A stretch of 12,890 nucleotides of DNA, from contig DAOVBK010000017.1 of NCBI GenBank assembly GCA_030670605.1, positions 1 to 12,890 of the forward strand, given 5' to 3'. The notes below the pieces were generated by a model. That model had not been told where the DNA came from. It made no database searches and was given only the letters and a program-made list of their open reading frames with translations. Origin of the DNA: Candidatus Stahliibacteriota bacterium. GTDB lineage: Bacteria > Hydrothermota > Tepidihabitantia > SM23-42. Positions 1-12,732 of this stretch are shown here, one piece after another (the first letter of the stretch is position 1; every line of letters begins with the position of its first letter). Position numbers and translations under genes: made by a program.

Positions 1-414
1 CCAGAAATAGTAGCCAATGTGCCGTTCAGTGTAGTGCACCTCGCACTGTGTCACGAACGTATCGTACAGTGTAACAGTACATGTTGTATCACGAGCAAAC
101 CACAGGTCTGTGTACCGCGTCATGGTTGCATCAGAGAATTTTACCATGTCAACAAGTTGCTTGATGATGGAATCCTCATTCCGGTAGTATTCATCCTCAT
201 CAAAAAATTCAACTGCTCCGAATGCGACCGGCACCCAGTCAGAAACGAACATGTCTTCTGTTAGAGTGAGTGCGGGATTATCATCAAGCAAACCGAAAAT
301 TGCTACACTGTCTTCAGGGGAACCTCCATAGAAACCTTCGGGTGGCTCATTTCCACATGTAAGAAAGATGAACAGACCTGCAACAACCAAGAGGGAGAGA
401 AACTTTCTCTTCAT
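1..414 (-). CDS. Putative lipoprotein, N-terminal part (runs off the left edge)
   Basis: The first 138 residues are in the window with no stop. The protein opens with MKRKFLSLLVVAGLFIFLTC: a basic start, a hydrophobic core of about 14 residues, and Cys20 followed by GNEPPEG. This looks like a type II (lipoprotein) signal, although Thr just before the Cys is less usual than Ala, Gly or Ser, so processing is likely but not certain. The mature part is acidic and aromatic-rich (GLLDDNPALTLTEDMF, VEFFDEDEYY) and I recognise no family. The start is chosen from the strong AAAGGAGG ribosome site about 5 nt upstream. It lies downstream of tonB but has its own consensus promoter and a long leader. An envelope role is inferred only from the signal and the TonB neighbourhood. 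Confidence 0.75.
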   Translation of the reverse strand, partial: MKRKFLSLLVVAGLFIFLTCGNEPPEGFYGGSPEDSVAIFGLLDDNPALTLTEDMFVSDWVPVAFGAVEFFDEDEYYRNEDSIIKQLVDMVKFSDATMTRYTDLWFARDTTCTVTLYDTFVTQCEVHYTERHIGYYFW

Positions 415-455
415 TTTTCCTCCTTTATTTTATTCTCCTCGCGCTGAAGTGCCAT
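411..455 (-). CDS. Possible leader peptide coupled to the lipoprotein gene
   Basis: This is a 14-codon ORF reading MALQREENKIKEEK. Its stop overlaps the lipoprotein start as ATGA (414-411), the arrangement used for translational coupling. A GGGGAGG Shine-Dalgarno-like sequence (472-466) lies about 10 nt before its ATG. The ATG falls in the 3' arm of a stem-loop whose loop holds that ribosome site. A reading frame this short can occur by chance, so this is a proposal from geometry, not from homology. Confidence 0.3.
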   Translation of the reverse strand: MALQREENKIKEEK

Positions 456-491
456 GCACAGATATCCTCCCCTTGCCGTCGCTGTGCACGG
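452..491 (-). other. Stem-loop in the lipoprotein mRNA leader
   Basis: In the minus-strand RNA, CCGTGCACAG (491-482) pairs with CTGTGCATGG (461-452) over 10 bp with a single G-U pair, closing a 20-nt loop. The loop contains GGGGAGG, and the ATG of the possible leader peptide (455-453) lies in the 3' arm. No T-run follows, so it is not an intrinsic terminator. A translational control hairpin is inferred. Confidence 0.5.
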
Positions 492-534
492 TTGTGTTTG
501 CAATACGCTCACATTTGCAGTATATCGCTATTAC

Positions 535-546
535 ATCACCTCCTTA
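535..546 (-). promoter_or_regulatory. Perfect 12-nt anti-SD match next to an ATG-TAA start-stop
   Basis: The minus strand reads TAAGGAGGTGAT, the exact complement of the 16S rRNA 3' tail (ATCACCTCCTTA). It sits about 6 nt after the predicted transcription start (near 552) and about 120 nt before the lipoprotein ATG. The only nearby ATG (536-534) overlaps it and is followed at once by TAA and TAG. No ordinary gene follows at the right distance. Confidence 0.5.
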
Positions 547-558
547 TCCTACCAACCA

Positions 559-587
559 ATTATAACATACCTATGAATGAATGTCAA
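559..587 (-). promoter_or_regulatory. Sigma-70-type promoter of the lipoprotein gene
   Basis: TTGACA (587-582) and TATAAT (564-559) are separated by 17 nt, matching the housekeeping consensus at all 12 positions. The predicted start is near 552, giving a leader of about 138 nt. The -35 box begins 18 nt after the tonB stop, so the lipoprotein gene can be transcribed separately from the tonB operon. I see no terminator between the two. Confidence 0.85.
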
Positions 588-605
588 GTAAGCAAAGGTA
601 CGCAC

Positions 606-1217
606 CTAGCCGCCGGTCAGCTGGAACCGCATGGGGATGGAAACATACACCCGCACGTACTTGTCCCGCTGCTTTGCCGGCGTGAACTTGGCTTTCCTCG
701 CGGCTGCGAGGGCTGCCTGGTCGAGCATCTGATTGCCACTAGATTTCAGGACTTTTACCTCTATGATGCTCCCATCGATGTCAACTAATGCCTTTACCAC
801 GGTCGTCCCCTCGATTCCCGCCCTGCGTGCAAGGTCTGGATATCGAGGCTTGGGTATATTGATCGGTTGCGGTTTCACTTCTACCTTATAATACGGCACA
901 ATCTCAATTGCCGGACCAGTGGGTCTAGTACGTATCAGGTCTTCCTGGAATTCGGTTGCAGCAATCGTTTCAACAGCCTCTTCCGCAACCTCGCTTTCTG
1001 CCTCTACCGCTACCTTGGGACGTTCAACCGGAGGCGGTTCCTCAAATTTCTCCATTAGCTGTGAGATCTCCTCCACCATGGTGATAATTTCTTTCTTGAG
1101 TTCGTAAGGTTTTGGTTCAGCATAGGGCACAAAGAGGAACAACAACACAAAAATGACAAGGCTAGCAATCATGCCTGTCCGTATATAAACCCCATGCATC
1201 ACCTTATGATCGCGCAT
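606..1217 (-). CDS. tonB: TonB-family energy transducer
   Basis: 203 residues, slightly shorter than E. coli TonB. A cytoplasmic N-terminus is followed by one membrane anchor (about residues 14-31, GMIASLVIFVLLFLFVPY). A helical, acidic and proline-bearing periplasmic linker follows (about 40-110; EEPPPVERPKVAVEAES). The C-terminal TonB domain (about 120-200) has PRYPDLARRAGIEGTTVVKA, a DGS turn and an LDQAALAAARKAKFTPA segment. TonB links the ExbB/ExbD proton channel to outer-membrane receptors. The gene starts 2 nt after the upstream exbD stop, with AGGAG about 6 nt before the ATG, and is the last gene of the exbB-exbD-exbD-tonB run. No TonB-dependent receptor is in the window, so the transported substrate is unknown. 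The linker is short and is not a long Pro-Lys/Pro-Glu rod. Confidence 0.93.
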   Translation of the reverse strand: MRDHKVMHGVYIRTGMIASLVIFVLLFLFVPYAEPKPYELKKEIITMVEEISQLMEKFEEPPPVERPKVAVEAESEVAEEAVETIAATEFQEDLIRTRPTGPAIEIVPYYKVEVKPQPINIPKPRYPDLARRAGIEGTTVVKALVDIDGSIIEVKVLKSSGNQMLDQAALAAARKAKFTPAKQRDKYVRVYVSIPMRFQLTGG

Positions 1218-1219
1218 AA

Positions 1220-1636
1220 CTATCTCCTATGTTCTGTTGCAAAGGTTATCCTGAATGCCTTTGCCTCCTTCAGTTGATCTAAAATGATATCAACCACACC
1301 ATACAGAACACCTCCATCGATATTGAGAATCACGATGAGCTCAGGATTGTTCCAGACCTTTGGTGCTATCTTCGCGGCAACGAGATTTTCTGTGACAATG
1401 TTGTCATCAACATAAATTTTGCTGTCCGTGTCAACCCAAAGGCTCGTGACGTTTTTGCGAAGGAGTATACGCTCTGTTGACCGCGCCTCAGGCAGCTTGA
1501 TCATGAGCTTCAGTGTCGTTGCGCGGAACACAGTTGTTACCATGAAGAACAGAATGAGAAGAAAGGCAATATCGGCTGTTGATGCCGTCGGAATGGTGGT
1601 ACCACGCGCTGATCTTCGAATAATACTTTTTCTCAT
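1220..1636 (-). CDS. exbD: ExbD/TolR-family protein (second copy in the operon)
   Basis: 138 residues. A basic N-terminus (RKSIIRRSARG) leads into one membrane helix (about 17-38) with TASTADIAFLLILFFMVTT. Asp22 matches the essential channel Asp of ExbD/TolR. The rest is a periplasmic ExbD domain with the usual short strands and helices (LWVDTDSKIYVDD, LDQLKEAKAFRITFATE). ExbD forms the proton-conducting core with ExbB and passes energy to TonB. The gene overlaps the upstream exbD by ATGA (1636-1633), which implies coupled translation and similar output. It is shorter than the other ExbD and only weakly similar outside the membrane segment, so this is an old duplication. A TolR role cannot be excluded by sequence, but the adjacent tonB favours ExbD. 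Confidence 0.92.
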   Translation of the reverse strand: MRKSIIRRSARGTTIPTASTADIAFLLILFFMVTTVFRATTLKLMIKLPEARSTERILLRKNVTSLWVDTDSKIYVDDNIVTENLVAAKIAPKVWNNPELIVILNIDGGVLYGVVDIILDQLKEAKAFRITFATEHRR

Positions 1637-2103
1637 TGTTCCTCGCTCGTTGGTATAAGACTGATCTTGTTCGCCCAGAGCTCTCGACCATCATCGGTCG
1701 TGACCCTAACAAGCTTGAGTTGATCAAGAACCCCTATCATGTTGTAGTACGATGTATTCTTACTCGCTCGCAAAGAAACCACAAGAAGTGTATCCCGTGC
1801 AAGCAGCCGCTCCTCAACAATAGTTTTGATTTCATCATACTGATCAGGAGGTAGATCAGTCTCTTCACCAGCTGCCTTGATCCTAATTGCACCTTCGGGG
1901 TTAATGAGAATCATTACGATGTTTTCTGGTTTGACTTGCACTATTTCCTGCACTTCTGTCTTTTCGGGTAAGAGCATCTTGAGTCCTTTGTCTTTCGTGA
2001 ATACTGTTGATGTAAGGAAGAAGATAAGAATCAAGAATGCTACATCACCCATTGCTGCAGTTGGGATCCCTGATTTGAGCTTTTTTCTCTTCCTCAGTTC
2101 CAT
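1633..2103 (-). CDS. exbD: ExbD/TolR-family protein (first copy in the operon)
   Basis: 156 residues. The basic start MELRKRKKLKSGIP precedes a single membrane helix (about 18-36) with AAMGDVAFLILIFFLTST. Asp20 is the conserved channel Asp. The periplasmic domain follows (LPEKTEVQEIVQVKPENI, then LVVSLRASKNTSYYNMIGVLDQLK in outline). It has a longer loop than its neighbour (about 75-100, rich in Glu and Asp) and an extra C-terminal tail. It begins 5 nt after the exbB stop and overlaps the next exbD by 4 nt. Two different ExbD proteins beside one ExbB suggest either a mixed ExbD dimer in the channel or two ExbD proteins serving different partners. That reading is inferred. Confidence 0.92.
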   Translation of the reverse strand: MELRKRKKLKSGIPTAAMGDVAFLILIFFLTSTVFTKDKGLKMLLPEKTEVQEIVQVKPENIVMILINPEGAIRIKAAGEETDLPPDQYDEIKTIVEERLLARDTLLVVSLRASKNTSYYNMIGVLDQLKLVRVTTDDGRELWANKISLIPTSEEQ

Positions 2104-2108
2104 TGCGC

Positions 2109-2741
2109 TTACCCCTTAGGTTTACGCTCAATCAGATAATCAATCAATCCGCTTGCTGCCTCTTCCATATCTCTTGTGTACCCATCAGTCTTGCTCGCAA
2201 AGAGAATGTGAACTATAGCGAGCGGTGTCGCAATAATGAGACCCCATTTTGTGGTAATCAGAGCGGTCGAAATGCCACTTGCGACCACGGTTGGTTCCAC
2301 TTCACCGGCGATCGCGATAGCGGCAAATGCCGTGATCATTCCCATGACCGTTCCCAAGAACCCGAGGAACGGAGCAACGGTTGTTAGTCCGCCGAGTAGT
2401 GACATACCGCGATCAAGAAATGCGAGTTCAATCGCAGCACTTCGGGTAACCATCTCCTCCATTGCATCCTTGCCCTTATCAGCCTTATCGAGAACTGCTC
2501 TCAGAACTTTCGCCACCGGTGCAGCTGTATTATTGCACAAGGCAATTCCACCCTTCACACCCTGTGCATCGATAATCTTAATGAGTTTATCGAGAAAAGT
2601 CCTCGGGTTAAGACGCGCCTTGATGAAAAGGCTATATAGTCTTTCAATGATTATTCCAACACCAACGACCGCGCACATAAGCAAGAACCACATAACAAAA
2701 CCACCACCGCCTTCGGCACCCATCTGGAACTCTCGTATCAT
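2109..2741 (-). CDS. exbB: ExbB/TolQ/MotA-family proton channel subunit
   Basis: 210 residues from the ATG preceded by AGGAGG 7 nt upstream. An ATG 36 nt further out has no ribosome site and was not used. Membrane helices lie at about 15-35, 113-140 and 158-182. The family signature is clear at 119-138 (TTVAPFLGFLGTVMGMITAF), and GISTALITTKWGLIIATP forms the third helix. A cytoplasmic domain sits between helices 1 and 2. ExbB assembles as a pentamer around an ExbD dimer and uses the proton gradient to energise TonB. By eye alignment with E. coli ExbB, the channel Glu176 (GIAEALLAT) corresponds to Thr159 here, and Lys165 lies in the same helix. It is the first gene of the run, behind two tandem promoters. 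Confidence 0.93.
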   Translation of the reverse strand: MIREFQMGAEGGGGFVMWFLLMCAVVGVGIIIERLYSLFIKARLNPRTFLDKLIKIIDAQGVKGGIALCNNTAAPVAKVLRAVLDKADKGKDAMEEMVTRSAAIELAFLDRGMSLLGGLTTVAPFLGFLGTVMGMITAFAAIAIAGEVEPTVVASGISTALITTKWGLIIATPLAIVHILFASKTDGYTRDMEEAASGLIDYLIERKPKG

Positions 2742-2763
2742 ACAAGTCCTCCTTTCATATATT

Positions 2764-2791
2764 ACTATACCTAGCACCTAAACCAAGTCAA
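2764..2791 (-). promoter_or_regulatory. Downstream promoter (P2) of exbB
   Basis: TTGACT (2791-2786) and TATAGT (2769-2764) are 16 nt apart, matching consensus at 10 of 12 positions. The predicted start is near 2757, leaving only about 15 nt before the exbB ATG, just enough for the AGGAGG site. Its -35 box overlaps the start region expected for P1, so polymerase at one promoter should affect the other. Confidence 0.65.
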
Positions 2792-2798
2792 GTCTGAA

Positions 2799-2826
2799 AT
2801 TATACCGATAGTTACGCGCCTGTCAA
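2799..2826 (-). promoter_or_regulatory. Upstream promoter (P1) of exbB
   Basis: TTGACA (2826-2821) and TATAAT (2804-2799) are separated by 16 nt, a 12-of-12 consensus match. The predicted start is near 2792, about 50 nt before the exbB start. It lies just after the stop of the upstream three-TM protein, so exbB-exbD-exbD-tonB is an independent unit. Confidence 0.85.
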
Positions 2827-2840
2827 CGTAGAAAAGGTAC

Positions 2841-3191
2841 CTACCTCGAACTCGCCGCATAGTAGGATACGCCGCCGATAAGGGCACATATACCAGCCCC
2901 CAGCAACATGAGACTCTCAATACGTGAAAGCACAAGTGAACCGACGATAAGATCGAATAGATCTGATGGCCCAGCCGTCCCCAGTAGCGGAAAGTACAAG
3001 AGCATGCGATAGACATGCACAAGCGCAAGGCAGACAAGCAATACCCCAGCAAGTACCGGAAATATCCAAATGCCCTTGCTTTTGATCAACACGAGTAATC
3101 GTTTTATGATCAATCCATACATAATCAGAGAGACAACAGTGAGAAGGATAGCGACTATGAATATCATCTCGGCAGGAATGTCAGCCCGCAT
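2841..3191 (-). CDS. Small hydrophobic membrane protein, family not recognised
   Basis: 116 residues. AAGGAGG ends 4 nt before the ATG. I see membrane helices at about 9-32 (IFIVAILLTVVSLIMYGLII), 41-62 (IWIFPVLAGVLLVCLALVHV) and 90-112 (ESLMLLGAGICALIGGVSYY). A short basic stretch (KRLLVLIKSK) lies between helices 1 and 2, and a GPSDLFDLIVG segment that may be amphipathic precedes helix 3. There is no catalytic motif. Length, helix spacing, the basic turn after helix 1 and an aromatic just before helix 2 all resemble the protein at 3444-3797, so the two may be paralogs. Both lie between the Roadblock genes and exbB on the same strand. A role in either neighbouring system is a guess. Confidence 0.7.
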   Translation of the reverse strand: MRADIPAEMIFIVAILLTVVSLIMYGLIIKRLLVLIKSKGIWIFPVLAGVLLVCLALVHVYRMLLYFPLLGTAGPSDLFDLIVGSLVLSRIESLMLLGAGICALIGGVSYYAASSR

Positions 3192-3207
3192 AATGCCTCC
3201 TTAGAGG

Positions 3208-3443
3208 AAACCCTAAACTCTAAATACTAAACCCCAAATAATATCGTATTCGTGACTCGTATCTCGTACTCGTGGACAAGATGTGAGATTTGAGATGTGG
3301 GTTGTGAGCGCGCCCTGCTTCCCCGTCCGTGAACAGACGAGGGCACGCGCACGGCGAGGTCGGGGATATTCTTCATCACACATCGCATATCGTCTCCATC
3401 TATACGAACTACGATGCACGAGTACGAACACATGATTTTGATT
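3208..3443. repeat. Degenerate 7-nt word arrays around a central hairpin
   Basis: This fills the gap between two genes. Left side: five 7-mers at 3208-3242 (AAACCCT, AAACTCT, AAATACT, AAACCCC, AAATAAT), then TCGTnn(n) words at 3244-3275, then GATGTGA, GATTTGA, GATGTGG, GTTGTGA at 3280-3307. The centre is a GC-rich stem-loop in which GCGCGCCCT (3308-3316) pairs with AGGG-CA-CGCGC (3340-3350), with an inner CGTC/GACG. Right side: 7-mers from 3374 (CATCACA, CATCGCA, TATCGTC, ..., CTACGAT, GCACGAG, TACGAAC) in roughly the opposite orientation to the left words. No ORF with a ribosome site lies here. It recalls the short tandemly repeated repetitive sequences (STRR) of cyanobacteria, but the words vary and the two sides mirror each other. 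Confidence 0.75.
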
Positions 3444-3797
3444 TCATTTTCCTCTCGTCACCTGGTAGAACCGTACGTTCGCGACAAGCGAAAGGATTCC
3501 TGACAGAAGGAATAGACCATACGCAATATAATTTATGCCCTGTTTTGGCAGCATCATCTTACCACCAAGCCCGCAATAGATGAGTTGAATGATCGCGAAG
3601 ACGAGAATGCCGGTCGGTGCAATAATCATGAACTGCCAGTTTGTACGCTCGTTCAAGACGATCTCATATCTGCGCGCGATTCTGCCAAGCACGATAAATG
3701 CAAGCCACAAAAGCAGCGCGCCAAGAACTAACAAGTAATTTGGAATGACAGCGAGTAACAAATACTGATCCGCATCTATGCCAAATGGCGTGTTCAT
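3444..3797 (-). CDS. Small membrane protein, family not recognised
   Basis: 117 residues from the ATG at 3797. GGAGG ends 4 nt upstream, while a TTG codon just before it is too close to that site to be the start. Membrane helices lie at about 13-36 (LLLAVIPNYLLVLGALLLWL region), 54-75 (FMIIAPTGILVFAIIQLIYC) and 88-110 (AYGLFLLSGILSLVANVRFY). RIARRYE follows helix 1, and K and R residues flank the others. No known domain or catalytic motif is visible. Topology and size parallel the protein at 2841-3191. The gene is 146 nt downstream of the second Roadblock-like gene across a repeat-filled gap, and I see no convincing promoter, so readthrough from that block is possible. Confidence 0.7.
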   Translation of the reverse strand: MNTPFGIDADQYLLLAVIPNYLLVLGALLLWLAFIVLGRIARRYEIVLNERTNWQFMIIAPTGILVFAIIQLIYCGLGGKMMLPKQGINYIAYGLFLLSGILSLVANVRFYQVTRGK

Positions 3798-3810
3798 CAA
3801 ACCTCCGGTT

Positions 3811-3936
3811 AAACCCTAAACTCTTACTGATGGAAGATCGGTCAGGGTTAGGATGCTAGAAAAATTAAATTCTCGAGCTTCCTGACCCTTACCCTTGAAC
3901 CATCTGCTGGGGTTTAGAGTTTGGGGTTTAGAGTTT
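3811..3936. repeat. Imperfect inverted element with telomere-like 7-nt words at its ends
   Basis: The left end carries AAACCCT and AAACTCT (3811-3824). The right end carries GGGGTTT, AGAGTTT, GGGGTTT, AGAGTTT (3909-3936), the inverted form. Inside, 18-nt arms (3840-3857, GGTCAGGGTTAGGATGCT; 3876-3893) are inverted with 15 of 18 positions matching and an 18-nt AT-rich loop. GATGG (3829-3833) and CCATC (3900-3904) add a further inner pair. The whole gap between the two neighbouring genes is therefore one mirrored unit using the same 7-nt word as the element at 3208. Confidence 0.7.
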
Positions 3937-3943
3937 ATGATCT

Positions 3944-4522
3944 TCATTTCAGCAGTGCCAGCAATTTATTCCGCATATCGCGACTCTTCGTGGGACCAAT
4001 GATCATTGATGCGGCTTTTGTGAGTGCTGCAATAAGTCGACGTATGTCTTTTGCATACAATTCTTCAGTGTGGATATCCTGCGATTTAAGCTGTATGTTG
4101 TAAATACGTTCGGTGAAGTCTCCCAGATAGTCTGCCATGATGAGCTTCATTTTTTCCAGCATTGCGGCTTCAAGCAGCTCTTGTTTGCGTTCACCGACTG
4201 ACGCCACAGGACGCTTCTTAATGTCCTCGAGTAACGTCCACAGCTCTTCAATGACAACACCTTCACGGTTCTCAAACAGGCTCCCTAAGAGACTCTCTTC
4301 GCCCAATTGCATAATGAGCCCTCTAGACTCTCCCACTATTTCCATCTTGTCAACCTTGATCTCACCAATAGCACTTATCGTTTCAAACACAACAAGTGCC
4401 ATCTGCAAGAGTTGGTCTTTCTTCCCCTCGGCATCGCGTGCAACAGCAATATCGCCAGTCCGCGAAATAACGAAACACGAAGACAGGCCTTTTTCCGCAT
4501 ACCGATTAAGAATACTTTCCAT
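3944..4522 (-). CDS. Roadblock/LC7-like protein with helical C-terminal domain
   Basis: 192 residues. Residues 1-80 have the Roadblock/LC7 pattern: an opening helix, SCFVISRTGDIAVARDA (strand-turn-strand with the usual DG-like turn), a long helix (KDQLLQMALVVFETISAI), a strand (KMEIVGESRGLIMQL), then GEESLLGSLFE. The rest is mostly helical and charged, ending in IRRLIAALTKAASMIIG...RNKLLALLK. Roadblock proteins such as MglB act as dimers on small Ras-like GTPases or as adaptors, but no GTPase gene is in the window. It starts 1 nt after the stop of the other Roadblock-like gene without a clear ribosome site, implying coupled translation. Its last ~33 residues resemble the end of that protein. 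The fold is inferred from pattern; the function is not established. Confidence 0.65.
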   Translation of the reverse strand: MESILNRYAEKGLSSCFVISRTGDIAVARDAEGKKDQLLQMALVVFETISAIGEIKVDKMEIVGESRGLIMQLGEESLLGSLFENREGVVIEELWTLLEDIKKRPVASVGERKQELLEAAMLEKMKLIMADYLGDFTERIYNIQLKSQDIHTEELYAKDIRRLIAALTKAASMIIGPTKSRDMRNKLLALLK

Positions 4523-4523
4523 A

Positions 4524-5165
4524 TCACTTCATCTTTGCAATGACTGCCTGCACTCTCTGCCGAGCCTGCGAAGAACCCATCTCGGCAACCGCCTTTTTGA
4601 CAAGAAAATCAATGATCGACCGCAGTGCCTGCACGAAGTCCTCTTCTCTACCGTGTGGCACCTCTTCTTTTATTGCAAGCTTGTCATTGACAACACCGAC
4701 AGACGGCACTATATCACCGCCCAGAATACCTAATCCCTGGCTGAGAAGTTCACACCAATGTTGCTTTTGATCTCTTCCGCCAAATTCATCGACAAGAAAA
4801 TTAATTTGATAAATCTTCGAACGTATGCTATGCGCAAGCTTGACTTCTACCTGCCGTGTTGTGGAGATCGACGCTTTGACACTCTTGAGAACACCATCCG
4901 GGTTCCGCTCGCGCTCGACCTCTATACCGACATATTTAGGCCCGTGCGGGAAGACGACAAGACGCTTCGAACCATAGCACAGTGAAATATATCCAATATC
5001 ACCCATTGCGAGACTCTTCACAATAACCTCACCAGCTGATGAGAAAAATGCCGTGAGGTCACCGATCGGTGCAGTTGATGAACCTCGTATTGACTTCACT
5101 GAACCATCCTCTGCATTCACTATCGCGTAGCCGATAAGTCCTGCAACTTTATCGAGTGCTTCCAT
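4524..5165 (-). CDS. Roadblock/LC7-like protein, first of a pair
   Basis: 213 residues from the ATG at 5165, chosen because GAGGGA lies about 9 nt upstream. The ATG at 5207 has no ribosome site and would add a non-conserved tail. Residues 1-85 read as a Roadblock/LC7 domain: LIGYAIVNAEDGSVKSIRG (two strands around a DG turn), IGDLTAFFSSAGEVIVKSLA (central helix), GYISLCYGSKRLVVFPHG (strand pair) and KYVGIEVE (last strand). A linker and a helical C-terminal region follow, ending LRSIIDFLVKKAVAEMGSS...AVIAKMK. Such proteins usually pair with an MglA-type GTPase or with DUF4388 proteins in signalling or polarity systems, and the DUF4388 gene is just upstream. With the second Roadblock-like protein it could form a heterodimer. 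Confidence 0.65.
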   Translation of the reverse strand: MEALDKVAGLIGYAIVNAEDGSVKSIRGSSTAPIGDLTAFFSSAGEVIVKSLAMGDIGYISLCYGSKRLVVFPHGPKYVGIEVERERNPDGVLKSVKASISTTRQVEVKLAHSIRSKIYQINFLVDEFGGRDQKQHWCELLSQGLGILGGDIVPSVGVVNDKLAIKEEVPHGREEDFVQALRSIIDFLVKKAVAEMGSSQARQRVQAVIAKMK

Positions 5166-5166
5166 G

Positions 5167-5256
5167 CTACACGTCCCTCTGCGTGCTTGGAGAGGCTCCT
5201 CCAACATGCGCGAAGGTACTGGTGGTCATGTCGTTACGCTCTGTACTTTGCAACAT
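5167..5256 (-). CDS. Possible 29-residue ORF filling the gap before the Roadblock gene
   Basis: This ATG directly follows the TGA of the DUF4388 gene in the same frame. The ORF ends at a TAG 1 nt before the Roadblock ATG, so it occupies the gap exactly. The peptide starts MLQSTERNDM and is polar, with no membrane segment. There is no ribosome site, so translation would depend on termination-reinitiation at TGA-ATG or on TGA readthrough that extends the DUF4388 protein. It may equally be a chance open frame. Confidence 0.25.
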   Translation of the reverse strand: MLQSTERNDMTTSTFAHVGGASPSTQRDV

Positions 5257-6099
5257 TCATCGTATTTTGTAGCGTCGCTCAAAATCCTGCCACTTTTTCC
5301 GGAAAAGGACCTTTCCATAGACTGACGGTCCTTCTTTTCGCATATACTGTTCGAAATCCTTTATTGCTTTCTTTATCTCTGTAGAGTCGAGTTCGAACGC
5401 TGGTTCTACCGTCATCGTTTTCTCGTTTATACGCACTGCATGCACTACCGTGCTGTTCTCTGCATTCAGAGCACCCCACGCACTCAACCACTTCGGTCCG
5501 TTCTTGCCAAAAACATCAAACAGGAATCGTAAGAATTCGATAAGCTCTGACATGACCTCTTCTACTTCTTTGGGAGCATATATCAATCCCTGTTCTTTGA
5601 GCCATATGATGGTCTTTGTTGCCTCATAGCCACCGACCTTTGATTCAGCTAGTATATCGCTCAATGTTCGTTTCCCGTCAACCAGGGCAAGAATGTGCCA
5701 ATCGGTCCGCCTCAGCGCAACGGCTGACTCGAGATCCTTTGTAGATTTCACAAGCACGGCATCCATGCGTGGTAGTTTCTTTCTGATTTCCTCAAATTCA
5801 ATGCGCCTTTTTTCCAGATTCTCAGTAAGCTTGCCAAAATCCCCGGATATCGTACGTTCAGGCGGGTTTGCATCAGCGATGAATTGACCGGTTCTAAGCT
5901 CGCCGAACGAAAGATTGAGAAGAGCAGTCATACCTTTCCCGAAGTTGTCCGTCGCATGTACGACAATACCATTTTCCAGGTAAATCTCCCCTGAATCACT
6001 GCCAGCGATTCTCAAAACTCCCGTTTTCTTAACGCGTGACAAGAACTGCAAGACGTCACCAAGAAGAAATGTTTTGAAATTGACTTCCAGCCCGAGCAT
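5257..6099 (-). CDS. DUF4388 (PATAN-type) domain protein
   Basis: 280 residues. Residues 6-85 match the DUF4388 pattern: NFKTFLLGDVLQFLSRVKKT, GVLRIAG, GEIYLENGIVVHA, then GMTALLNLSFGELRTGQF, the usual output sub-domain with a small hydrophobic 'sensor' sheet. A helical linker with a lysine-rich stretch follows (about 88-112). A winged-helix-like unit comes next (about 136-175, ILALVDGKRTLSDILAES...IIWLKEQGLI), as is common after DUF4388. The C-terminal part (about 180-280) is unassigned and ends basic (FRKKWQDFERRYKIR). DUF4388 proteins in other phyla occur with response regulators, MglA/MglB-type GTPases and gliding or pilus systems. Its ATG overlaps the upstream stop as TAATG, so it belongs to the membrane-protein run. 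Confidence 0.8.
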   Translation of the reverse strand: MLGLEVNFKTFLLGDVLQFLSRVKKTGVLRIAGSDSGEIYLENGIVVHATDNFGKGMTALLNLSFGELRTGQFIADANPPERTISGDFGKLTENLEKRRIEFEEIRKKLPRMDAVLVKSTKDLESAVALRRTDWHILALVDGKRTLSDILAESKVGGYEATKTIIWLKEQGLIYAPKEVEEVMSELIEFLRFLFDVFGKNGPKWLSAWGALNAENSTVVHAVRINEKTMTVEPAFELDSTEIKKAIKDFEQYMRKEGPSVYGKVLFRKKWQDFERRYKIR

Positions 6100-6755
6100 T
6101 ATATTATGCGCAGCCAGCTATGAAGAAGAAAGTATACGCGTCCAATCAAAAGCGAAATACGTGCCATGACTGTGTATCCAAATGATGCCCCGAATGCAAT
6201 CATCAGGAACCAGACGCCAATTTTCGCGAGTCCACCAAAAACACCTTTGTGCTCTTTGGAAAAGAAAAAGTAAATGATGCCGGTGATAACACCGACCACA
6301 ATGAGGGGTACGGCAATGGCGTAGAGAAACGTAATGATACCTGGTTCAGCAAACAAACGCTGCCAGCTTTCAACCTGCACCAAAGAGACAAGTGTTGCTC
6401 TGATTTGCTCAACAGCATTTGTCTGCAGATACGTAATCATGTAGTACCCGGAATACGTACCAACAATGAACGCAAGTGGCCATCGCGACACCCACGAAAT
6501 ACGAGGGACTAATCGTGCAAGCATCATGATGCCAAGTGCAAGCGGAATGATAAAGAGAAGTTGACCTTCTCGAAAGAGCGGCTGAACAAGATTTGGCAAA
6601 AGAATATTGTGGTAATAATATGCTGCCCAGTAGGCGGCAGAAACACCGATGAATAGATGCTCAGCGAATTTATAGAACGGATTGTCTCTATAGAGAAAGC
6701 TCAATATGCACAGTGTTAGGAATGCTGCTATCCAGATGCCAATGGTTTCAATCAT
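6099..6755 (-). CDS. Conserved-looking polytopic membrane protein, function unknown
   Basis: 218 residues with about six membrane helices (near 3-21, 33-50, 64-82, 91-110, 138-166, 177-200) and a hydrophobic C-terminal end. After helix 1 the segment YRDNPFYKFAEHLFIGVSA (22-40) is charged and aromatic and looks like a conserved family signature. R81, R85, R91 and W88-W92 form a basic-aromatic loop before helix 4. I know no named family and see no transporter or enzyme motif. Start and stop overlap the neighbours (ATGA upstream at 6755-6752, TAATG downstream), the tightest form of coupling. The protein is therefore probably made in proportion to the double-anchored protein before it and the DUF4388 protein after it. 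Confidence 0.75.
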   Translation of the reverse strand: MIETIGIWIAAFLTLCILSFLYRDNPFYKFAEHLFIGVSAAYWAAYYYHNILLPNLVQPLFREGQLLFIIPLALGIMMLARLVPRISWVSRWPLAFIVGTYSGYYMITYLQTNAVEQIRATLVSLVQVESWQRLFAEPGIITFLYAIAVPLIVVGVITGIIYFFFSKEHKGVFGGLAKIGVWFLMIAFGASFGYTVMARISLLIGRVYFLLHSWLRII

Positions 6756-7576
6756 TCTTTCTTTTTCCTTCCGATAATGTAGAAAATGTTAGCAAAGACA
6801 ATGAGGAAAATGATAACGCCATGCGCTATTGACTGAGCATCCATACCACTTGTCGCAGTGCCGGCTATTTCGAGAATCGTCTCATATTCCGCGGCTCCTT
6901 TCATACCACCCATCATTCCACAGAGTTGGCCTGCGTTTAGATATGGATAGAACGCAGGTGCACTGACTGCGGTAACGCCTGCACCAACTGTCTTGCCATA
7001 TCTGCCCTGTGCGATCATCACCCACTCACGTACACCCGGGTCGCCGGCTGAAAGACTAACAATAAGGTTTACGTTGTCGAAATTCTTGACGCCCTCCATT
7101 ATGGAAAATTCGTCAATTGGAGTACCGGCATAGTCCTGTGGAAACGTGTTAGGAATATTTTCTGCTACCGCCGATATGACAACGATACCGCCGGCTTTGT
7201 AGCCAAGGTTCACATAGTCAACGCCGTATTCTTTGCCGTATTCTGTAGCAGACACCTCCATCACCTCTTGTGCAAGCGAGACTCCTTCTGGCCAGAGCGC
7301 CATTCCAATGATCTTGATGTCTTTTTCAAAAAAATGCTGTACCAATGCCTGGTTCATCGGATAGACTTCAGGCATGGTTGATGGCCCGTAATCGAAGGAC
7401 ATTAACACCCTCGATCCTGCGGGTAGCGCCTCCACTGTTTCATAGAGACTGCGAACAGGATCGCTGACTTCGATCTTGAAACCAATGGGAAAAAGAAGAG
7501 GAATGACGACGGCAAGAAAGATGAGCAAAAATATTATCCTGCGGTCAAGTTTTTCTAAACGTTCAATTAACTTCAT
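6752..7576 (-). CDS. Double-anchored membrane protein with large soluble domain, function unknown
   Basis: 274 residues from the ATG at 7576. The frame is open for 123 nt further upstream inside the previous gene, but the ATGA overlap (7576-7573) and AGGA just before it mark this start. One helix lies at about 13-34 (IIFLLIFLAVVIPLLFPIGF) and one at 252-268 (GVIIFLIVFANIFYIIG). About 215 residues lie between them. This domain has alternating strands and helices: AGSRVLMSFDYGPSTMPE (54-70), DIKIIGMALWPEG (86-98), GIVVISAVAENIP (130-142) and VNLIVSLSAGDPGVREWV (169-186). It ends with a glycine/methionine-rich GQLCGMMGGMKGAAEYE (216-232). The alternation suggests a Rossmann-like alpha/beta fold, but I see no nucleotide-binding loop. 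Confidence 0.75.
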   Translation of the reverse strand: MKLIERLEKLDRRIIFLLIFLAVVIPLLFPIGFKIEVSDPVRSLYETVEALPAGSRVLMSFDYGPSTMPEVYPMNQALVQHFFEKDIKIIGMALWPEGVSLAQEVMEVSATEYGKEYGVDYVNLGYKAGGIVVISAVAENIPNTFPQDYAGTPIDEFSIMEGVKNFDNVNLIVSLSAGDPGVREWVMIAQGRYGKTVGAGVTAVSAPAFYPYLNAGQLCGMMGGMKGAAEYETILEIAGTATSGMDAQSIAHGVIIFLIVFANIFYIIGRKKKE

Positions 7577-8193
7577 TTTCCTGCAAGGTATGTTCTCTCT
7601 ATACCAAGGATGATACGGAGCGACGTTGAAACAACACCAAGCGCAATACCAATCATAATTGCGCGCTGACCAGCCATGTTCGGATAACTCATGATCCAAT
7701 CGCTAATCAATGGTAACCTGTCCCATATGTAATTTCCAATTGGTACGCGACCGATCATAACCAAGATTGCCGAGGCGAGCAACACTGTGGCCTCCGGGGT
7801 TCGAGCACGAAATGCACGATATGAGGCTGATGCGACAAAAAAGGCAAGAAGTGCAAACATCGTTGATGACATTGGTATATGCATGTGCCAATATAAATAA
7901 TAGAAGAATGTACCTCGCTCGATTCCTCCGAATATGCCGGCAGCAAACATAACCACAAAGGCAACGAGCAAGACAATACTATACCACCAGCCGCTGCGCA
8001 GGCGATGCACGCGCTCGATGTGTATTTTCATCAGATTACCAATGCCGAGAGTCATCGCAAAAACAGTAATAATCAAAAACCAGGCATTGAAAACTTGTTG
8101 TATGTCTGAAAAAGGTCGATGTGGCACGAAATATTGAATTATCATTGCCATGCCAGCAATGAAGGTTATCAATAGCGGTACATTCTTCTTCAT
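7573..8193 (-). CDS. Multi-spanning membrane protein, function unknown
   Basis: 206 residues with about six helices (near 5-22, 33-53, 69-90, 107-126, 136-152, 176-196). Notable loops are HIERVHRLRSGWW (58-70) before helix 3, FFYYLYWHMHIPMSS (96-110) with two His before helix 4, and GRVPIGNYIWDRLPLISDW (148-166). The His/Met-rich YWHMHIPM segment could bind a metal or heme, but there is no CxxCH or other recognised site, so this is only a possibility. It begins 4 nt after the DUF6754 stop without an evident ribosome site and overlaps the next gene by ATGA, so translation looks coupled on both sides. Confidence 0.75.
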   Translation of the reverse strand: MKKNVPLLITFIAGMAMIIQYFVPHRPFSDIQQVFNAWFLIITVFAMTLGIGNLMKIHIERVHRLRSGWWYSIVLLVAFVVMFAAGIFGGIERGTFFYYLYWHMHIPMSSTMFALLAFFVASASYRAFRARTPEATVLLASAILVMIGRVPIGNYIWDRLPLISDWIMSYPNMAGQRAIMIGIALGVVSTSLRIILGIERTYLAGK

Positions 8194-8197
8194 ATTA

Positions 8198-9316
8198 TTA
8201 AAACGTTGTCAGCCAGTTAATAATGTTGGTGAATCCGAGCGTGACCAGAATCACACCGACAACAAGAATGAAAATCATAACCGCCTTTCCCCAATCCTGT
8301 CCTTTAAGACTTCCGAGAAGGAGCGGTTCATTCCCCAGATATGCACTCGCTGCAAAAAGCTCCTCGCCAATCAAGGTATAGTCACACGCAGTGACGAAAA
8401 ACGGCAACTGCGATGGCATGGCGGTTCCGGCAATCTGAATAGCACCTGTCGAATGACCAGTCTCAGCGAGGATGAGTGATTCAGCATAGAAACAACCCAT
8501 GTAGAATATCGCGCCTGGTTTTTCCCGTAACATAATGCCGTCAACACCTGCAGCATACCCGAACTGGTCGTCGGTAAGATATCTGATCTTATCAGCATCA
8601 TACGTATCTGGTCTTCCCGCATCGAGATATGCTTCCTTGACTATCTCTTGTGCGGCGCTCATGACAATCGAACGACAGCATGGAACAAGCAGAGGCGTTT
8701 CATATGATGCTGCTTTACGCGCGACTCTTCCCAGAATAATCATGCTGGCAATCGTCTGAATATTATCCATGTCCATAATCCCCGGTACATACATGATCGG
8801 TCTACCCATCTCAGTTGCTCGACCAACCGCATCATCAACTGCCTCTAATCCCGCGATCGGACGGATATAGAGTTTCTCTCCTTTTTTCGCCTTGCGAATG
8901 AACCAGAGGACAAAAAACGAAAGGAGGACGAGAGCGACGAGAATATTAACCCGTCCCGCATGGAACCACTGGGCGCGTGATGCGATCGGCATACTGATGA
9001 GTGGCTCTGACAGCGCTATGCCATCGGACGCACGTATCACATAACGGTAGAGTGTTCCGTCCAATGTGTTGCCATCAATAAACTTTTCTGAACCCGGCGC
9101 GGCTGTACCAATGATTTCAAACTCTTCCTCCCCTGATGAACGGAGAATCTGATACTCAACAATAGCATCAGCACCTGCTCCGTCATCAGCAGATTTGGTC
9201 CACGAAATAACGATGCTTCCACCTGCATCATTTGTTCTATCGTAAACCTGTATGTCTGTAGGGGATGCTGGCGTTACCGCAAGCTGTGCAGCGATGACTA
9301 GCACGACAATTAGCAT
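8198..9316 (-). CDS. FN3-like and DUF6754 domain membrane protein
   Basis: 372 residues from ATG at 9316; a GTG just before it is the alternative. An N-terminal hydrophobic stretch (1-15) acts as signal or anchor. Residues 17-103 look like a fibronectin type III domain (PTDIQVYDRTND, GSIVISWTKS, EYQILRSSG, YRYVIRASDG). A membrane helix follows at about 121-140 (RVNILVALVLLSFFVLWFI). Residues 145-340 match what I recall of DUF6754: RPIMYVPGIMDMDNIQTIAS, ETPLLVPCCRSIVMSAAQE, YLTDDQFGYAAGVDGIMLRE, FYAESLILAETGHSTGAIQI, LLLGSLKGQDWGK. A last helix spans 345-365. The domain's function is unknown. It is the first gene of a run of at least seven and appears to be read from a leaderless transcript. 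I recall DUF6754 next to similar membrane proteins in other uncultured lineages, from memory only. Confidence 0.8.
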   Translation of the reverse strand: MLIVVLVIAAQLAVTPASPTDIQVYDRTNDAGGSIVISWTKSADDGAGADAIVEYQILRSSGEEEFEIIGTAAPGSEKFIDGNTLDGTLYRYVIRASDGIALSEPLISMPIASRAQWFHAGRVNILVALVLLSFFVLWFIRKAKKGEKLYIRPIAGLEAVDDAVGRATEMGRPIMYVPGIMDMDNIQTIASMIILGRVARKAASYETPLLVPCCRSIVMSAAQEIVKEAYLDAGRPDTYDADKIRYLTDDQFGYAAGVDGIMLREKPGAIFYMGCFYAESLILAETGHSTGAIQIAGTAMPSQLPFFVTACDYTLIGEELFAASAYLGNEPLLLGSLKGQDWGKAVMIFILVVGVILVTLGFTNIINWLTTF

Positions 9317-9322
9317 CACTTA

Positions 9323-9967: not shown

Positions 9968-11125
9968 ATGGAATATTTCTTAAACAATAAAGAAAAACAG
10001 TTAAAGAACAAGGCACATGATATTGCCGAGAATCTTGTTCTACCTGTCCGTGACGAATTCGATGAGAAAGCGGAATTCCCTCGCGAGCTCATCAAGGAAA
10101 TGGCAAAACAGGGCATGCTTAAGATCTTCATCCCTGAAGAGTATGGTGGAACAGGAGGGAAAATTATGGATATGTGCATTGCCTGCGAAGAAATCGCGCG
10201 CGCGTGCGCTGGTATTGCAACATCTTATGCAGTCAATGCACTTGGCTGTGGTCCTATTGTATACTTCGCCAGCGAAGAGCAGAAAAAGAAGTATTTGCCG
10301 AAAATCGCCTCCGGGGAATCACTCTGCGCATTCGGTTTAACCGAGGCACAAGCAGGTAGTGACGTTGCGAACATCCAAACGACGGCACGAAAGGAAGGTG
10401 ATTACTACGTACTGAATGGCGTGAAACAATTCATATCGAATGCGAGCGAATCAGACATCTACACTGTTCTCGCCTCAACAGATACATCCCGTGGTGCACG
10501 TGGCATCTCAGCCTTCATTGTCGAAAAGGAAATGTCGGGTTTGTCTTATGGTAAAGAAGAAAACAAACTCGGTATCAGAGCATCAGTCACGACTGAACTC
10601 GTTTTTGAGGACTGCAACGTGCCAAAAGAAAATCTCATGGGACGTGAAGGAATGGGCTTTATCTACACCATGCGTAATTTTGACCGTGCGCGACCCGGCG
10701 TCGGTGCAATCGGACTCGGCATTGCACAGGGAGCATATGAAGATGTGCTGGACTATGCATACACACACGACCTTTTGAACAATCAGTACATTGTACGAAA
10801 AATAGCCGACATGGCAACTGAAATCGAAGCAGCACGCGCACTTATTTATGCGACAGCACGCATGATTGATTCTGGAGTAAAAGGATTCGCTAAAGAATCA
10901 TCTTTTGCCAAGCTCTACCCATCTGATGTAGCAATGAAGGTATGCATTGACGCAATTGAAATCCTCGGTCCCCACGGAATCTTGAAGGAATACTATATTG
11001 AAAAACGATTGCGTGATGCTAAAATCACTCAAATATACGAAGGCACGAACGAAATTCAGAGAGGCGTGATCGCCCTCGAACTAACGAGGGAGATGGGAAT
11101 AAAAGAAAGGGCTAAAAAGGGATAA
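9968..11125 (+). CDS. Acyl-CoA dehydrogenase, catalytic-type subunit (ACAD1)
   Basis: 385 residues, the usual length. It has the N-terminal helical domain, a beta domain with FGLTEAQAGSD (123-132) and QFISNA (154-159) for FAD, and a C-terminal domain ending IYEGTNEIQRG. Glu358 aligns with the catalytic base of butyryl- and medium-chain dehydrogenases. These enzymes oxidise acyl-CoA to 2-enoyl-CoA and pass electrons to ETF. Two partner-facing FAD elements are missing. The R-x-QFG-x-PI stretch after DYA is replaced by a segment about 5 residues shorter (THDLLNNQYIV, 266-276), and Q-x-x-GG-x-G is EILGPHG (331-337). Its ribosome site is AAGGAGG. The last residues (ERAKKG) are encoded by the following word array. 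Substrate unknown. It probably pairs with ACAD2. Confidence 0.9.
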   Translation: MEYFLNNKEKQLKNKAHDIAENLVLPVRDEFDEKAEFPRELIKEMAKQGMLKIFIPEEYGGTGGKIMDMCIACEEIARACAGIATSYAVNALGCGPIVYFASEEQKKKYLPKIASGESLCAFGLTEAQAGSDVANIQTTARKEGDYYVLNGVKQFISNASESDIYTVLASTDTSRGARGISAFIVEKEMSGLSYGKEENKLGIRASVTTELVFEDCNVPKENLMGREGMGFIYTMRNFDRARPGVGAIGLGIAQGAYEDVLDYAYTHDLLNNQYIVRKIADMATEIEAARALIYATARMIDSGVKGFAKESSFAKLYPSDVAMKVCIDAIEILGPHGILKEYYIEKRLRDAKITQIYEGTNEIQRGVIALELTREMGIKERAKKG

Positions 11126-11175
11126 AATGGCTCAAAAGGGCAATAGAGGGCAGAAAAGGCAACCAAGGGGACATG
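11106..11175. repeat. Left 10-nt word array flanking the S23 gene
   Basis: About seven units of roughly 10 nt carry an AAAGGGC-like core: AAAGGGCTAA, AAAGGGATAA, AATGGCTCAA, AAGGGCAATA, GAGGGCAGAA, AAGGCAACCA, AGGGGACATG. The array starts inside the ACAD1 reading frame and supplies its stop codon. A matching array in the opposite orientation lies beyond the S23 gene. Confidence 0.75.
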
Positions 11176-11198
11176 AAAAGATGGTTGTCTGACAAAAC

Positions 11199-11540
11199 AT
11201 GAATAAGTTTGATATTTTAGTACAGAAAATATTACCATCAATACCGAAATACGAATTCAAGACACGATCACAAATCGATAATGCGTCTGATTCTGTGGGT
11301 GCCAACTTCGTTGAAGGATACTACAGTGGTTCACTTGCAGAGTATCTACGATTCTTGCATTACAGCAAGCGCTCGCTTGGTGAGTTGAAAGAACGAGGTA
11401 GAAGAATTAGACGAAAAGGATACATAGCAGACCCAGTCTTTGAAGAATTCGACAACTGTGCCAATGGTACTATGTATCTACTGGATCGTCTCATCCAGTC
11501 TCTAAAAGACAAGCAGGTGCAGAAGGCAGTGCGGAAATGA
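11199..11540 (+). CDS. Four-helix-bundle protein, S23 / 23S rRNA intervening-sequence family
   Basis: 113 residues, normal for the family. The signature is SQIDNASDSVGANFVEGYYSGS (spanning 24-45) followed by EYLRFLHYSKRSLGEL (48-63), RRIRRKGYI and a final helix (TMYLLDRLIQSL). The fold is a four-helix bundle that forms pentamers in known members. Relatives are encoded in 23S rRNA intervening sequences, and Avd of diversity-generating retroelements is related. No cellular role is settled. The usual N-terminal VWQKA-type helix is replaced by MNKFDILVQKILPSIPKYEF. No ribosome site is clear, but a 9-codon ORF from 11173 overlaps the start as ATGA. The gene sits between the two dehydrogenase genes, inside inverted 10-nt arrays, so it may be an insertion. 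Confidence 0.85.
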   Translation: MNKFDILVQKILPSIPKYEFKTRSQIDNASDSVGANFVEGYYSGSLAEYLRFLHYSKRSLGELKERGRRIRRKGYIADPVFEEFDNCANGTMYLLDRLIQSLKDKQVQKAVRK

Positions 11541-11554
11541 ACCCAGCTGTTATA

Positions 11555-11615
11555 GCCATTTTCGCCTTTAATCCCCCTCTTTCAGCCCTCTCTCAGCCTT
11601 TTCGAGCCTTTTGAT
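11555..11615. repeat. Right 10-nt word array flanking the S23 gene, inverted
   Basis: Six units of 9-11 nt carry GCC-pyrimidine-rich cores: GCCATTTTC, GCCTTTAATC, CCCCTCTTTCA, GCCCTCTCTCA, GCCTTTTCGA, GCCTTTTGAT. The core is the reverse complement of the left array's AAAGGGC. Together they bracket about 510 bp (11106-11615). The array stops just before the ACAD2 ribosome site. Confidence 0.75.
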
Positions 11616-11631
11616 CATGGAGGTGTAGTAT

Positions 11632-12732
11632 ATGGAACTTAATCAAGAATGCATTTTACTTCAAACTGAATTACGAAAATTCGCACAACAAGTAATCCTC
11701 GACAAAGTCGATGAATTCGACAAAACCTGCAGTGTGTCTTCAGACAACGTGAAACGGCTCGCCGAGATGGGTATTCTCGGTGCAATCATCCCTGAAGACA
11801 TGGGTGGCGCAGCACTGGATACAATCGGGTTGGTTGTGTCACTTGAGGAAATCAGCAACGTATGTCCGTCAACTGCGCTCATTGTGGCAATTCACAACGC
11901 GTTTGCCTTTTCGATAATGAAATTCGGCAGTGATGACATGAAAAAGAAATACTTGGAAAATGCAGCAAGCGGTGAAATCATCGGCGGTTTTGCAATCACT
12001 AACACAAACGAATTCAGTGTCGAACGCACAGACGGAAGCATGATGTTGAACGGTACAAATTCACTTGTCCTCAATGCAGACATGCACGGACCATTTGTTA
12101 TCTTTCTGCCTACCGATGTAGAGAAAAAGAACCTCGCCACGTATGTCATTGACCGGGGTTTTCCAGGGATGACAATCCGAAAGAACGAGACTGCCCTCGG
12201 ATTAAAAGCTGCCGGCATTGGAATTGCATCATTTGAAAACAGTAGTATCACAAACGCGTCGCTCGTTGGTACAGAAGAAGATGGTAACAAAATATACCAC
12301 GCTGTGTGCGACCTTCTGAATATCTACCTTGCTGCAATCGCATGTGGTCTCGCACAGGGCGCTACAGAGGCAGCAATCAAATATGCGAAAGAGCGTGTTC
12401 AATTTGGTCAACCAATAATCACCTTCGGCATGGTCAGAGAGAAAATTGCTGACATGTCAACACAGATTGAAGCGGGTCGTCTGCTGGCGTACAACGCAGC
12501 GTTGGCGTGCGATGCTGGTAAGAACTATAGCCGCGCTGCATCAATGGCAAAATACTACATGGGGCGTGCTGCGATTGATGTAACTAATTCTGTGATCCAA
12601 ATCTTCGGTGGTTACGGGTACATGAAAGACTATCCTGTTGAACGCTACTTCCGTGATGCCCAAGTGATCAATGTATTATGTAGCACACCTGCAGACGAAA
12701 AAGAAAAAATCGTAAAGGAAACGATAGGCTAG
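11632..12732 (+). CDS. Acyl-CoA dehydrogenase homolog lacking the catalytic Glu (ACAD2)
   Basis: 366 residues over the whole family length; GGAGGTG lies 6 nt before the ATG. The N-terminal helical domain is normal (LAEMGILGAIIPEDMGG). The FAD loop usually reading LTEPxAGSD is AITNTNEFSVERT (121-133), shorter and without the motif. The F-I-T-N-A element is LVLNA. The C-terminal YEGT is LCST, putting Cys350 at the catalytic Glu position. The other known Glu position, of isovaleryl-CoA dehydrogenase, is also absent (DLLNIYL, 227-233). In contrast, the elements that reach into a partner's FAD site are intact: R254-VQFGQPI and Q323-IFGGYGY. This is the reverse of ACAD1. It is probably a non-catalytic partner subunit. 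The reading frame is complete, so it is not an obvious pseudogene. Confidence 0.88.
   Translation: MELNQECILLQTELRKFAQQVILDKVDEFDKTCSVSSDNVKRLAEMGILGAIIPEDMGGAALDTIGLVVSLEEISNVCPSTALIVAIHNAFAFSIMKFGSDDMKKKYLENAASGEIIGGFAITNTNEFSVERTDGSMMLNGTNSLVLNADMHGPFVIFLPTDVEKKNLATYVIDRGFPGMTIRKNETALGLKAAGIGIASFENSSITNASLVGTEEDGNKIYHAVCDLLNIYLAAIACGLAQGATEAAIKYAKERVQFGQPIITFGMVREKIADMSTQIEAGRLLAYNAALACDAGKNYSRAASMAKYYMGRAAIDVTNSVIQIFGGYGYMKDYPVERYFRDAQVINVLCSTPADEKEKIVKETIG

Follow-up and report, generated by a model that had tools for sequence, protein, structure and literature searches.

Two half-site acyl-CoA dehydrogenase genes at one locus

The DNA analysed here (the window) is the entire contig C205, 12,890 bases long, from a draft genome (G000; 1.75 Mb, 79% complete, 294 contigs) whose named relatives are metagenome-assembled genomes (MAGs) of candidate division WOR-3 / Candidatus Stahlbacteria. 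On its + strand, at the contig end, lie two genes for proteins of the acyl-CoA dehydrogenase (ACAD) type, ACAD1 and ACAD2. A preliminary description of the sequence had proposed that they carry complementary halves of one active site and form an obligate heteromer, and both open reading frames (ORFs) were recovered where it had placed them. We refer to the families of ACAD1 and ACAD2 as alpha1 and beta1 (pair I), and to those of a second pair in the same genome as alpha2 and beta2. The features of the two genes are as follows; "listed homologs" are defined in the next section.

9968..11125, + strand: ACAD1, proposed alpha (catalytic) subunit, 385 amino acids (ORF, domain and structure matches, AlphaFold2)
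10340..10363, + strand: TEAQAGSD, residues 125-132, own-chain flavin loop, kept (120/120 listed homologs)
10430..10444, + strand: FISNA, residues 155-159, isoalloxazine contact, kept with Ser for Thr (alignment)
10760..10783, + strand: residues 265-272, short turn replacing the R-x-x-F-G hairpin of ordinary ACADs (alignment, model)
10784..10786, + strand: Gln273, aligned with Gln323 of isovaleryl-CoA dehydrogenase, kept in ACAD1 and lost in ACAD2
10958..10978, + strand: EILGPHG, residues 331-337, degenerate QxxGGxG (alignment)
11039..11041, + strand: Glu358 in YEGT, catalytic base, kept (120/120 listed homologs)
11632..12732, + strand: ACAD2, proposed beta (clamp) subunit for flavin adenine dinucleotide (FAD), 366 amino acids (ORF, domain and structure matches, AlphaFold2)
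11986..12030, + strand: residues 119-133, tight turn replacing the TExxAGSD loop of ordinary ACADs, loop deleted (alignment, model)
12394..12408, + strand: R255-VQFG, ADP/ribose clamp, kept (R and F in 120/120 listed homologs)
12598..12618, + strand: QIFGGYG, residues 323-329, pyrophosphate clamp, kept (120/120 listed homologs)
12679..12681, + strand: Cys350 at the catalytic-Glu position of ordinary ACADs of this type (alignment)

Both proteins belong to the ACAD superfamily by their domains and fold. ACAD1 scored above the Pfam cut-offs for the ACAD N-terminal, middle (95.1 bits) and C-terminal domains. ACAD2 exceeded the cut-offs for the N- and C-terminal domains, while its middle domain remained below (28.1 vs 33.3 bits), as is expected of a protein that has lost the flavin loop. 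The AlphaFold2 monomer models of ACAD1 and ACAD2 both showed an ACAD fold (mean pLDDT 94.4 and 92.6, respectively) and matched ordinary ACADs with TM-scores of ~0.9.

Aligning the two proteins with solved ACADs, and the genome's five ACADs with one another, revealed a 5-residue deletion in ACAD1 at the RxQFG hairpin and a deletion of ~8 residues in ACAD2 at the TExxAGSD loop. In the models, helix 230-266 of ACAD1 continues nearly straight into helix 273-301 with a short turn between them, and strand 119-121 of ACAD2 turns tightly into 126-133. The motifs and positions described earlier for ACAD1 (TEAQAGSD at 125-132, FISNA, Glu358 and EILGPHG) were correct, and the alignment confirmed the loss of RxQFG. 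For ACAD2, Gln323, Cys350 and the loss of TExxAGSD also stood, but RVQFG starts at Arg255 instead of R254. Sequence alignment and the separate monomer models further showed that ACAD1 keeps no equivalent Arg/Phe/Gln set and ACAD2 no equivalent base. ACAD1 is thus an alpha half-site protein (flavin loop and catalytic Glu, without the clamp), with a caveat for Gln273, and ACAD2 is a beta half-site protein (RxxF and QxxGG clamp, without the flavin loop and Glu).

Conservation, linkage and the proposed heteromer

For each protein, we counted motifs in its 120 nearest homologs among the matches listed, which are not a random sample of ACADs. All ACAD1 homologs (120/120) retained TExxAGSD and YEGT; RxxFG was absent throughout (0/120), and a single protein (1/120) showed a QxxGG pattern. 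In the ACAD2 homologs, R, F, Q and GG were each present in 120/120 and TExxAGSD in 0/120; the base position held Glu in none, Cys in 97 and Gly in 17, and the letters EGT occurred elsewhere near the C-terminus in one protein. The complementary split is near-invariant in these homologs of each protein. Beta1 is more variable than alpha1 (mean column entropy 1.29 vs 0.59, from two homolog lists that differ in depth) and the genome is a fragmented draft, so one could suppose that ACAD2 is a decaying paralog or that the motif losses are assembly errors. We consider this most improbable, since identical losses recur in 120 listed homologs, the clamp residues are invariant, and the reading frames are intact in 21 genomes.

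Those genomes come from a search of the own genome and 60 relatives, 27 of them at the order level and 34 at the class level. Of the 27 order-level genomes, 21 have an intact alpha1, and these 21 are also the ones with an intact beta1, so that homologs of both genes co-occur as the preliminary description had anticipated. In the other six order-level genomes, the search recovered no intact alpha1 or beta1; in G015 part of a beta1 lies at the end of a contig, and in G012, which is 94% complete, neither gene was found. Among the 24 alpha1 loci (one cut short), beta1 lies directly after alpha1 at 23, with the two genes overlapping at 14, separated by a 2-bp gap at 2 and by a longer gap at 7; one of the overlaps, in G018, arises because ORF prediction took an early start. 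The 34 class-level genomes yielded no beta1-rank match among the matches listed, where the best matches to ACAD2 were canonical genes with identity up to 42%. In a protein database, 37 of 120 alpha1 clusters (that of the window included) matched one of 120 beta1 clusters in the size of the longest contig, and a control with shifted sizes gave a mean of 0.75 and a maximum of 4 matches. Both the adjacency and the co-occurrence that mark a heteromeric half-site ACAD were therefore observed.

It has been documented that two monomers hold each FAD in human isovaleryl-CoA dehydrogenase (IVD). There, T200 of one monomer touches the isoalloxazine and Q323 of the neighbour touches the adenosine, R312, G384, T409 and E411 contact the ribose and pyrophosphate, and R312, G384 and Q323 come from the neighbouring monomer (PMC12369846). 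In our alignment, RxxF is the counterpart of IVD R312 and F315; the second G of QxxGG matches G384, and FIT ends in the residue aligned with T200. At the position of Q323, all alpha1 (120/120) and alpha2 (24/24) sequences have Gln, whereas beta1 mostly has Gly (114/120) and beta2 mostly Pro (22/25); the 54 canonical ACADs of the set have Glu (30), Gln (23) or Gly (1) there.

These residues suggest that ACAD1 and ACAD2 are very probably the alpha and beta chains of an obligate heteromer in which each pair has one active site, the arrangement of mycobacterial ChsE4-ChsE5. The complementary loss, its near-invariance, the linkage and co-occurrence of the genes, the ACAD folds of the monomer models and the descent of the alpha from an unsplit enzyme (see below) are shown here and support this, as does the recurrence of the split in a second pair. 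The alpha would bind the acyl-CoA and the isoalloxazine ring and contribute Glu358 as the base, and R255-x-x-F258 and QIFGGYG of the beta would grip the ADP end of the alpha's FAD across the dimer interface, most likely within an alpha2-beta2 tetramer. The beta should be unable to hold the flavin or deprotonate the substrate and the alpha lacks a full clamp, which leaves one active site per pair; with its halves split in this way, neither chain would be expected to work alone. The pair would bind FAD and may pass electrons to an electron-transfer flavoprotein (ETF) encoded beside the second pair. The ChsE literature describes an alpha that binds the isoalloxazine and holds the Glu and a beta that meets the ADP-ribose part (PMC11153573), and the reading given in the preliminary description agrees with this. 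Its proposal that the same design exists in another lineage gains support from the complementary loss, the homologs and the co-occurrence.

Several observations weigh against an obligate pair. The neighbour-type FAD contact Gln273 stays on the alpha, which argues against a perfectly clean split at the sequence level. The higher variability of beta1 fits relaxed constraint too. One alpha1 copy in G005 (L158) has no adjoining beta, and in the window 506 bp and another ORF part ACAD1 from ACAD2. In G027, a genome outside the order, the alpha1-like protein has lost both clamps, and beta1 was not found there, only one beta2-like protein; alpha1 may therefore not need its own beta everywhere.

The retention of Gln273 and of Thr360, together with the fact that the complex is a prediction, would also suit a view in which ACAD1 is a working homomer with rearranged FAD binding and ACAD2 has a separate, non-dehydrogenase role. 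This appears very unlikely, because the unsplit orthologs keep Arg, Phe, Gln and Gly contacts that are missing from ACAD1, their loss falls in the lineage in which ACAD2 appears (with the exception of G027, where the split occurs and no beta1 was found), and ACAD2 conserves exactly the residues lost from ACAD1.

The 506-bp spacer is the longest among the 23 pair-I loci and holds one further feature, which is probably an insertion and lies outside the enzyme:

11199..11540, + strand: ORF of the four-helix-bundle / 23S-rRNA-IVP family, 113 amino acids (TIGR02436 and PF05635 above cut-off)

A second pair and the origin of the split

The preliminary description had suggested a search of genomes for neighbouring ACAD pairs with the same split. 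Such pairs were seen at the pair-I loci of the relatives and, as a second pair, in the own genome:

L006 (contig C71 of the own genome), 213-5628: second half-ACAD pair (beta2, alpha2), canonical ACAD and EtfB/EtfA cluster

The order of genes is a beta-like ACAD (368 amino acids), an alpha-like ACAD (378 amino acids, 4-bp overlap), a canonical ACAD and both ETF subunits, and the pair shows the same complementary split as ACAD1-ACAD2. A census by the ACAD N-terminal domain detected five ACADs in this genome, and four of the five are halves, the set comprising two pairs and one ordinary dehydrogenase. Among the 12 order-level genomes that are at least 90% complete, 11 have five or six ACADs and G012 has three. 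Beta2 was typed in 25 of the 27 order-level genomes and alpha2 in 24, the alpha2 of the 25th (G013) being present as contig-end fragments only; in G007 (66% complete) the canonical operon gene alone was found, and in G009 none of the three. Near the second pair in relatives, an iron-sulfur CCG-domain protein occurs in 14 genomes and a flavoprotein, taken here as HdrA-like, in 10.

The same three-gene cluster was also seen in MAGs that carry the label Cloacimonadota (L077, L078) or Armatimonadetes (L079). A third case comes from gut Clostridia, in which a Pseudoflavonifractor MAG carries overlapping alpha-like and beta-like genes (L100, 2676-4917), in a cluster with further ACADs and, from ORF reading, crotonases, a thiolase and a 3-hydroxyacyl-CoA dehydrogenase. 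The R and Q motifs are present, and both TExxAGSD and the Glu absent, in 36 of the 120 listed homologs of the L100 beta; the remainder are R only (4), canonical (74) or mixed (6).

We then placed these proteins in trees built without the motif columns, from which ChsE, IpdE and Pim chains are absent. Of 168 ACAD rows, five (four fragments and one odd G032 protein) were untyped and stand outside the typed counts. For the careful tree (81 of 142 rows), part of the genomes, among them G027, was set aside, as were six rows that were long or odd: the beta of G027, one beta of G006, one protein of G032 and three rows from L100. Among the 18 ACAD1 orthologs typed from genomes outside the order, 17 are canonical and one, that of G027, is split and groups with alpha1. 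Alpha1 groups with canonical WOR-3 orthologs (17 rows, 100/100 in the careful tree; 32 rows, 99 in the first tree), and alpha2 groups with canonical GEGT-type ACADs of other lineages (21 rows, 95/87). None of 200 bootstrap trees (0%) gave the alphas one common origin, and forcing them into one clade, a group named after the first tree had been inspected, cost 129 log-likelihood units (AU p 0.00036). The lack of bootstrap support and the AU rejection indicate that the two alphas arose independently. In the first tree, the L100 alpha joins the canonical ACAD of its own cluster (93) and so looks separate in origin, and the L100 beta falls on the WOR-3 beta side (97); all of these are long branches.

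The 19 betas of the careful tree make up a single clade (100/100) whose neighbour is the canonical operon gene (100/95), and each beta group, when built alone, still joins that gene. Independent origins of beta1 and beta2 are unsupported given this single clade; the betas are long branches, between which attraction is possible, and for that reason they may share a placement artefact.

In 11 class-level genomes, a clamp-less alpha2-like ACAD lies beside the canonical gene with no adjoining beta:

Genomes: G029, G031, G033, G037, G039, G043, G047, G049, G051, G056, G059
Loci: L207, L209, L211, L212, L214, L216, L218, L220, L222, L224, L226

Census and typing detected no beta-like ACAD in ten of the 11 (all but G033), the ACAD1 ortholog of G059 not being included. 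G031 (L238), G039 (L239) and G059 (L240) have an extra divergent ACAD-like protein of 360-375 amino acids with no usual motif intact. A 400-residue class-level ACAD, labelled by us 'glutaryl-CoA-dehydrogenase-like', was considered as a hidden beta and rejected, as all 11 examined were canonical (WIS, RxxF, QxxGA, YEGS/T). The canonical enzyme could have been the clamp donor before there was a dedicated beta, or the beta could have been lost in these genomes. G027 (91% complete; L197, L198) has two clamp-less alphas, one beta, which is beta2-like, and one canonical ACAD.

These genomes raise the question of whether the clamp of ACAD1 is provided by the genome's own canonical dehydrogenase or by beta2, and not by ACAD2 or not by ACAD2 alone. 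The clamp-less alpha2-like proteins directly beside a canonical gene without a recognisable beta, the two alphas and one beta of G027, and the full clamp of the own genome's canonical enzyme are all consistent with such a donor. We nevertheless regard it as unlikely, because all 21 order-level genomes with alpha1 keep a dedicated beta1 adjoining an alpha1, often overlapping it, and because the R, F, Q and GG of its clamp are invariant in the 120 listed homologs.

With the ACAD1-ACAD2 heteromer as the preferred reading, we tentatively propose, as a history that may well prove wrong, that the clamp subunit was reusable. A beta lineage would have derived from the canonical operon gene or a relative; alpha2 and later the unrelated alpha1 would have come to depend on this beta and lost their clamps independently, and duplication of the beta would then have given each alpha its own partner. 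The 11 beta-less genomes and G027 would be surviving steps, in which the canonical enzyme doubles as clamp donor.

Known half-site systems, substrate clues and significance

Among solved structures, both chains are closest in sequence to homomeric short-chain ACADs of the same fold (MmgC 5lnx, Clostridioides difficile Bcd 5ol2, SCAD), and their nearest solved structures among the matches listed are ordinary short-chain ACADs, e.g. 5ol2, 5lnx and 4l1f. In contrast to the two proteins described here, each chain of 5ol2 and 5lnx carries a complete site, as seen from the motifs in the alignments. The same is known of the other homomeric short-chain ACADs.

ChsE4-ChsE5 and ChsE1-ChsE2 of Mycobacterium tuberculosis (FadE26-27, FadE28-29) are also encoded by two ACAD-like genes and divide the residues in the same way as ACAD1 and ACAD2. 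Each ChsE tetramer is described with two active sites (PMC8399759). The present pair differs from them in that it occurs in WOR-3 with no steroid pathway shown, both chains are nearest to short-chain/butyryl-type ACADs, and alpha1 groups with unsplit WOR-3 orthologs. No ChsE label appeared among the best 60 solved structures per query (of 120, 110 and 128 matched), and the structure labels and the IpdE2 model score gave no indication of descent from the ChsE/steroid ACAD families.

Other steroid and bile-acid degraders have ACADs that resemble the proposed pair in being heteromeric or fused. For IpdE1-IpdE2, Scd1AB/Scd2AB/Scd3AB and CasC, which has two fused ACAD domains, this is shown or suggested in the literature (PMC8399759). 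ACAD2 reached 71 bits on the IpdE2 model against a cut-off of 450 and matched its C-terminal part only. PimC/PimD and their homologs in beta-proteobacteria have paired ACAD genes in one operon, and for the homologs a heterotetramer is raised as a possibility (PMC12543098). ACAD1 scored 110 bits on pimC (cut-off 624) and ACAD2 74 bits on pimD (cut-off 653), which places neither protein in this pimeloyl-CoA dehydrogenase family by NCBIfam. The best-scoring NCBIfam model was that of acryloyl-CoA reductase AcrC, and the scores of 381 and 271 bits lay below its cut-off of 640.

The preliminary description had also considered a bulky or unusual acyl-CoA as the substrate, which the analysis did not support. 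The genes around the pair (DUF6754, DUF4388, ExbB/ExbD/TonB and unnamed genes, on the other strand) gave no hint of a substrate and no evidence for a bulky or steroid-like one. In enzymes for alpha-substituted acyl-CoAs, the residue before the catalytic Glu is small (PMC11659651). The base motif of ACAD1 is YEGT and not GEGT, which is the motif in the alpha of the second pair; judged from this motif, alpha-branched substrates are slightly less likely for ACAD1.

Divergent from the ACAD pair, TonB, ExbD and ExbB-like genes and a DUF6754/DUF4388 block occupy 606-9319 of the window on the - strand. Families of these neighbours recur next to the pair in relatives, e.g. that of the protein at 6752-7699 in 13 genomes.

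Elsewhere in the own genome, a cluster on contig C290 (L247, 1782-13192) has three members that pass NCBIfam thresholds: a biotin carboxylase and an HMG-CoA synthase of the archaeal type, both of which exceed one cut-off or more, and a thiolase-domain protein above one subfamily cut-off. Below the cut-offs shown, it also has a carboxyltransferase-like, two enoyl-CoA-hydratase-like and one 3-hydroxyacyl-CoA-dehydrogenase-like protein. Turnover of leucine or of short branched-chain acyl-CoAs would be a fitting role for this candidate pathway, and no link between the cluster and the ACAD pair was seen.

The half-site design of ACADs is known, and the papers considered describe it from steroid and bile-acid degraders; here it occurs in an uncultured phylum in which steroid metabolism is not shown. 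A search of the open-licence literature for heteromeric ACADs in WOR-3 gave no paper on them by title. What is new is an apparently separate origin in WOR-3, the doubling of the design in one genome, and relatives in which intermediate stages appear to survive. The finding also carries a warning for annotation, as half-site proteins, where named, are called acyl-CoA or butyryl-CoA dehydrogenase, and they make up 4 of the 5 ACADs detected here. The general question is by what route complementary losses turn a homomeric enzyme into an obligate heteromer. With the design present twice in one genome, together with unsplit orthologs and possible intermediates in sister families, this transition becomes testable.

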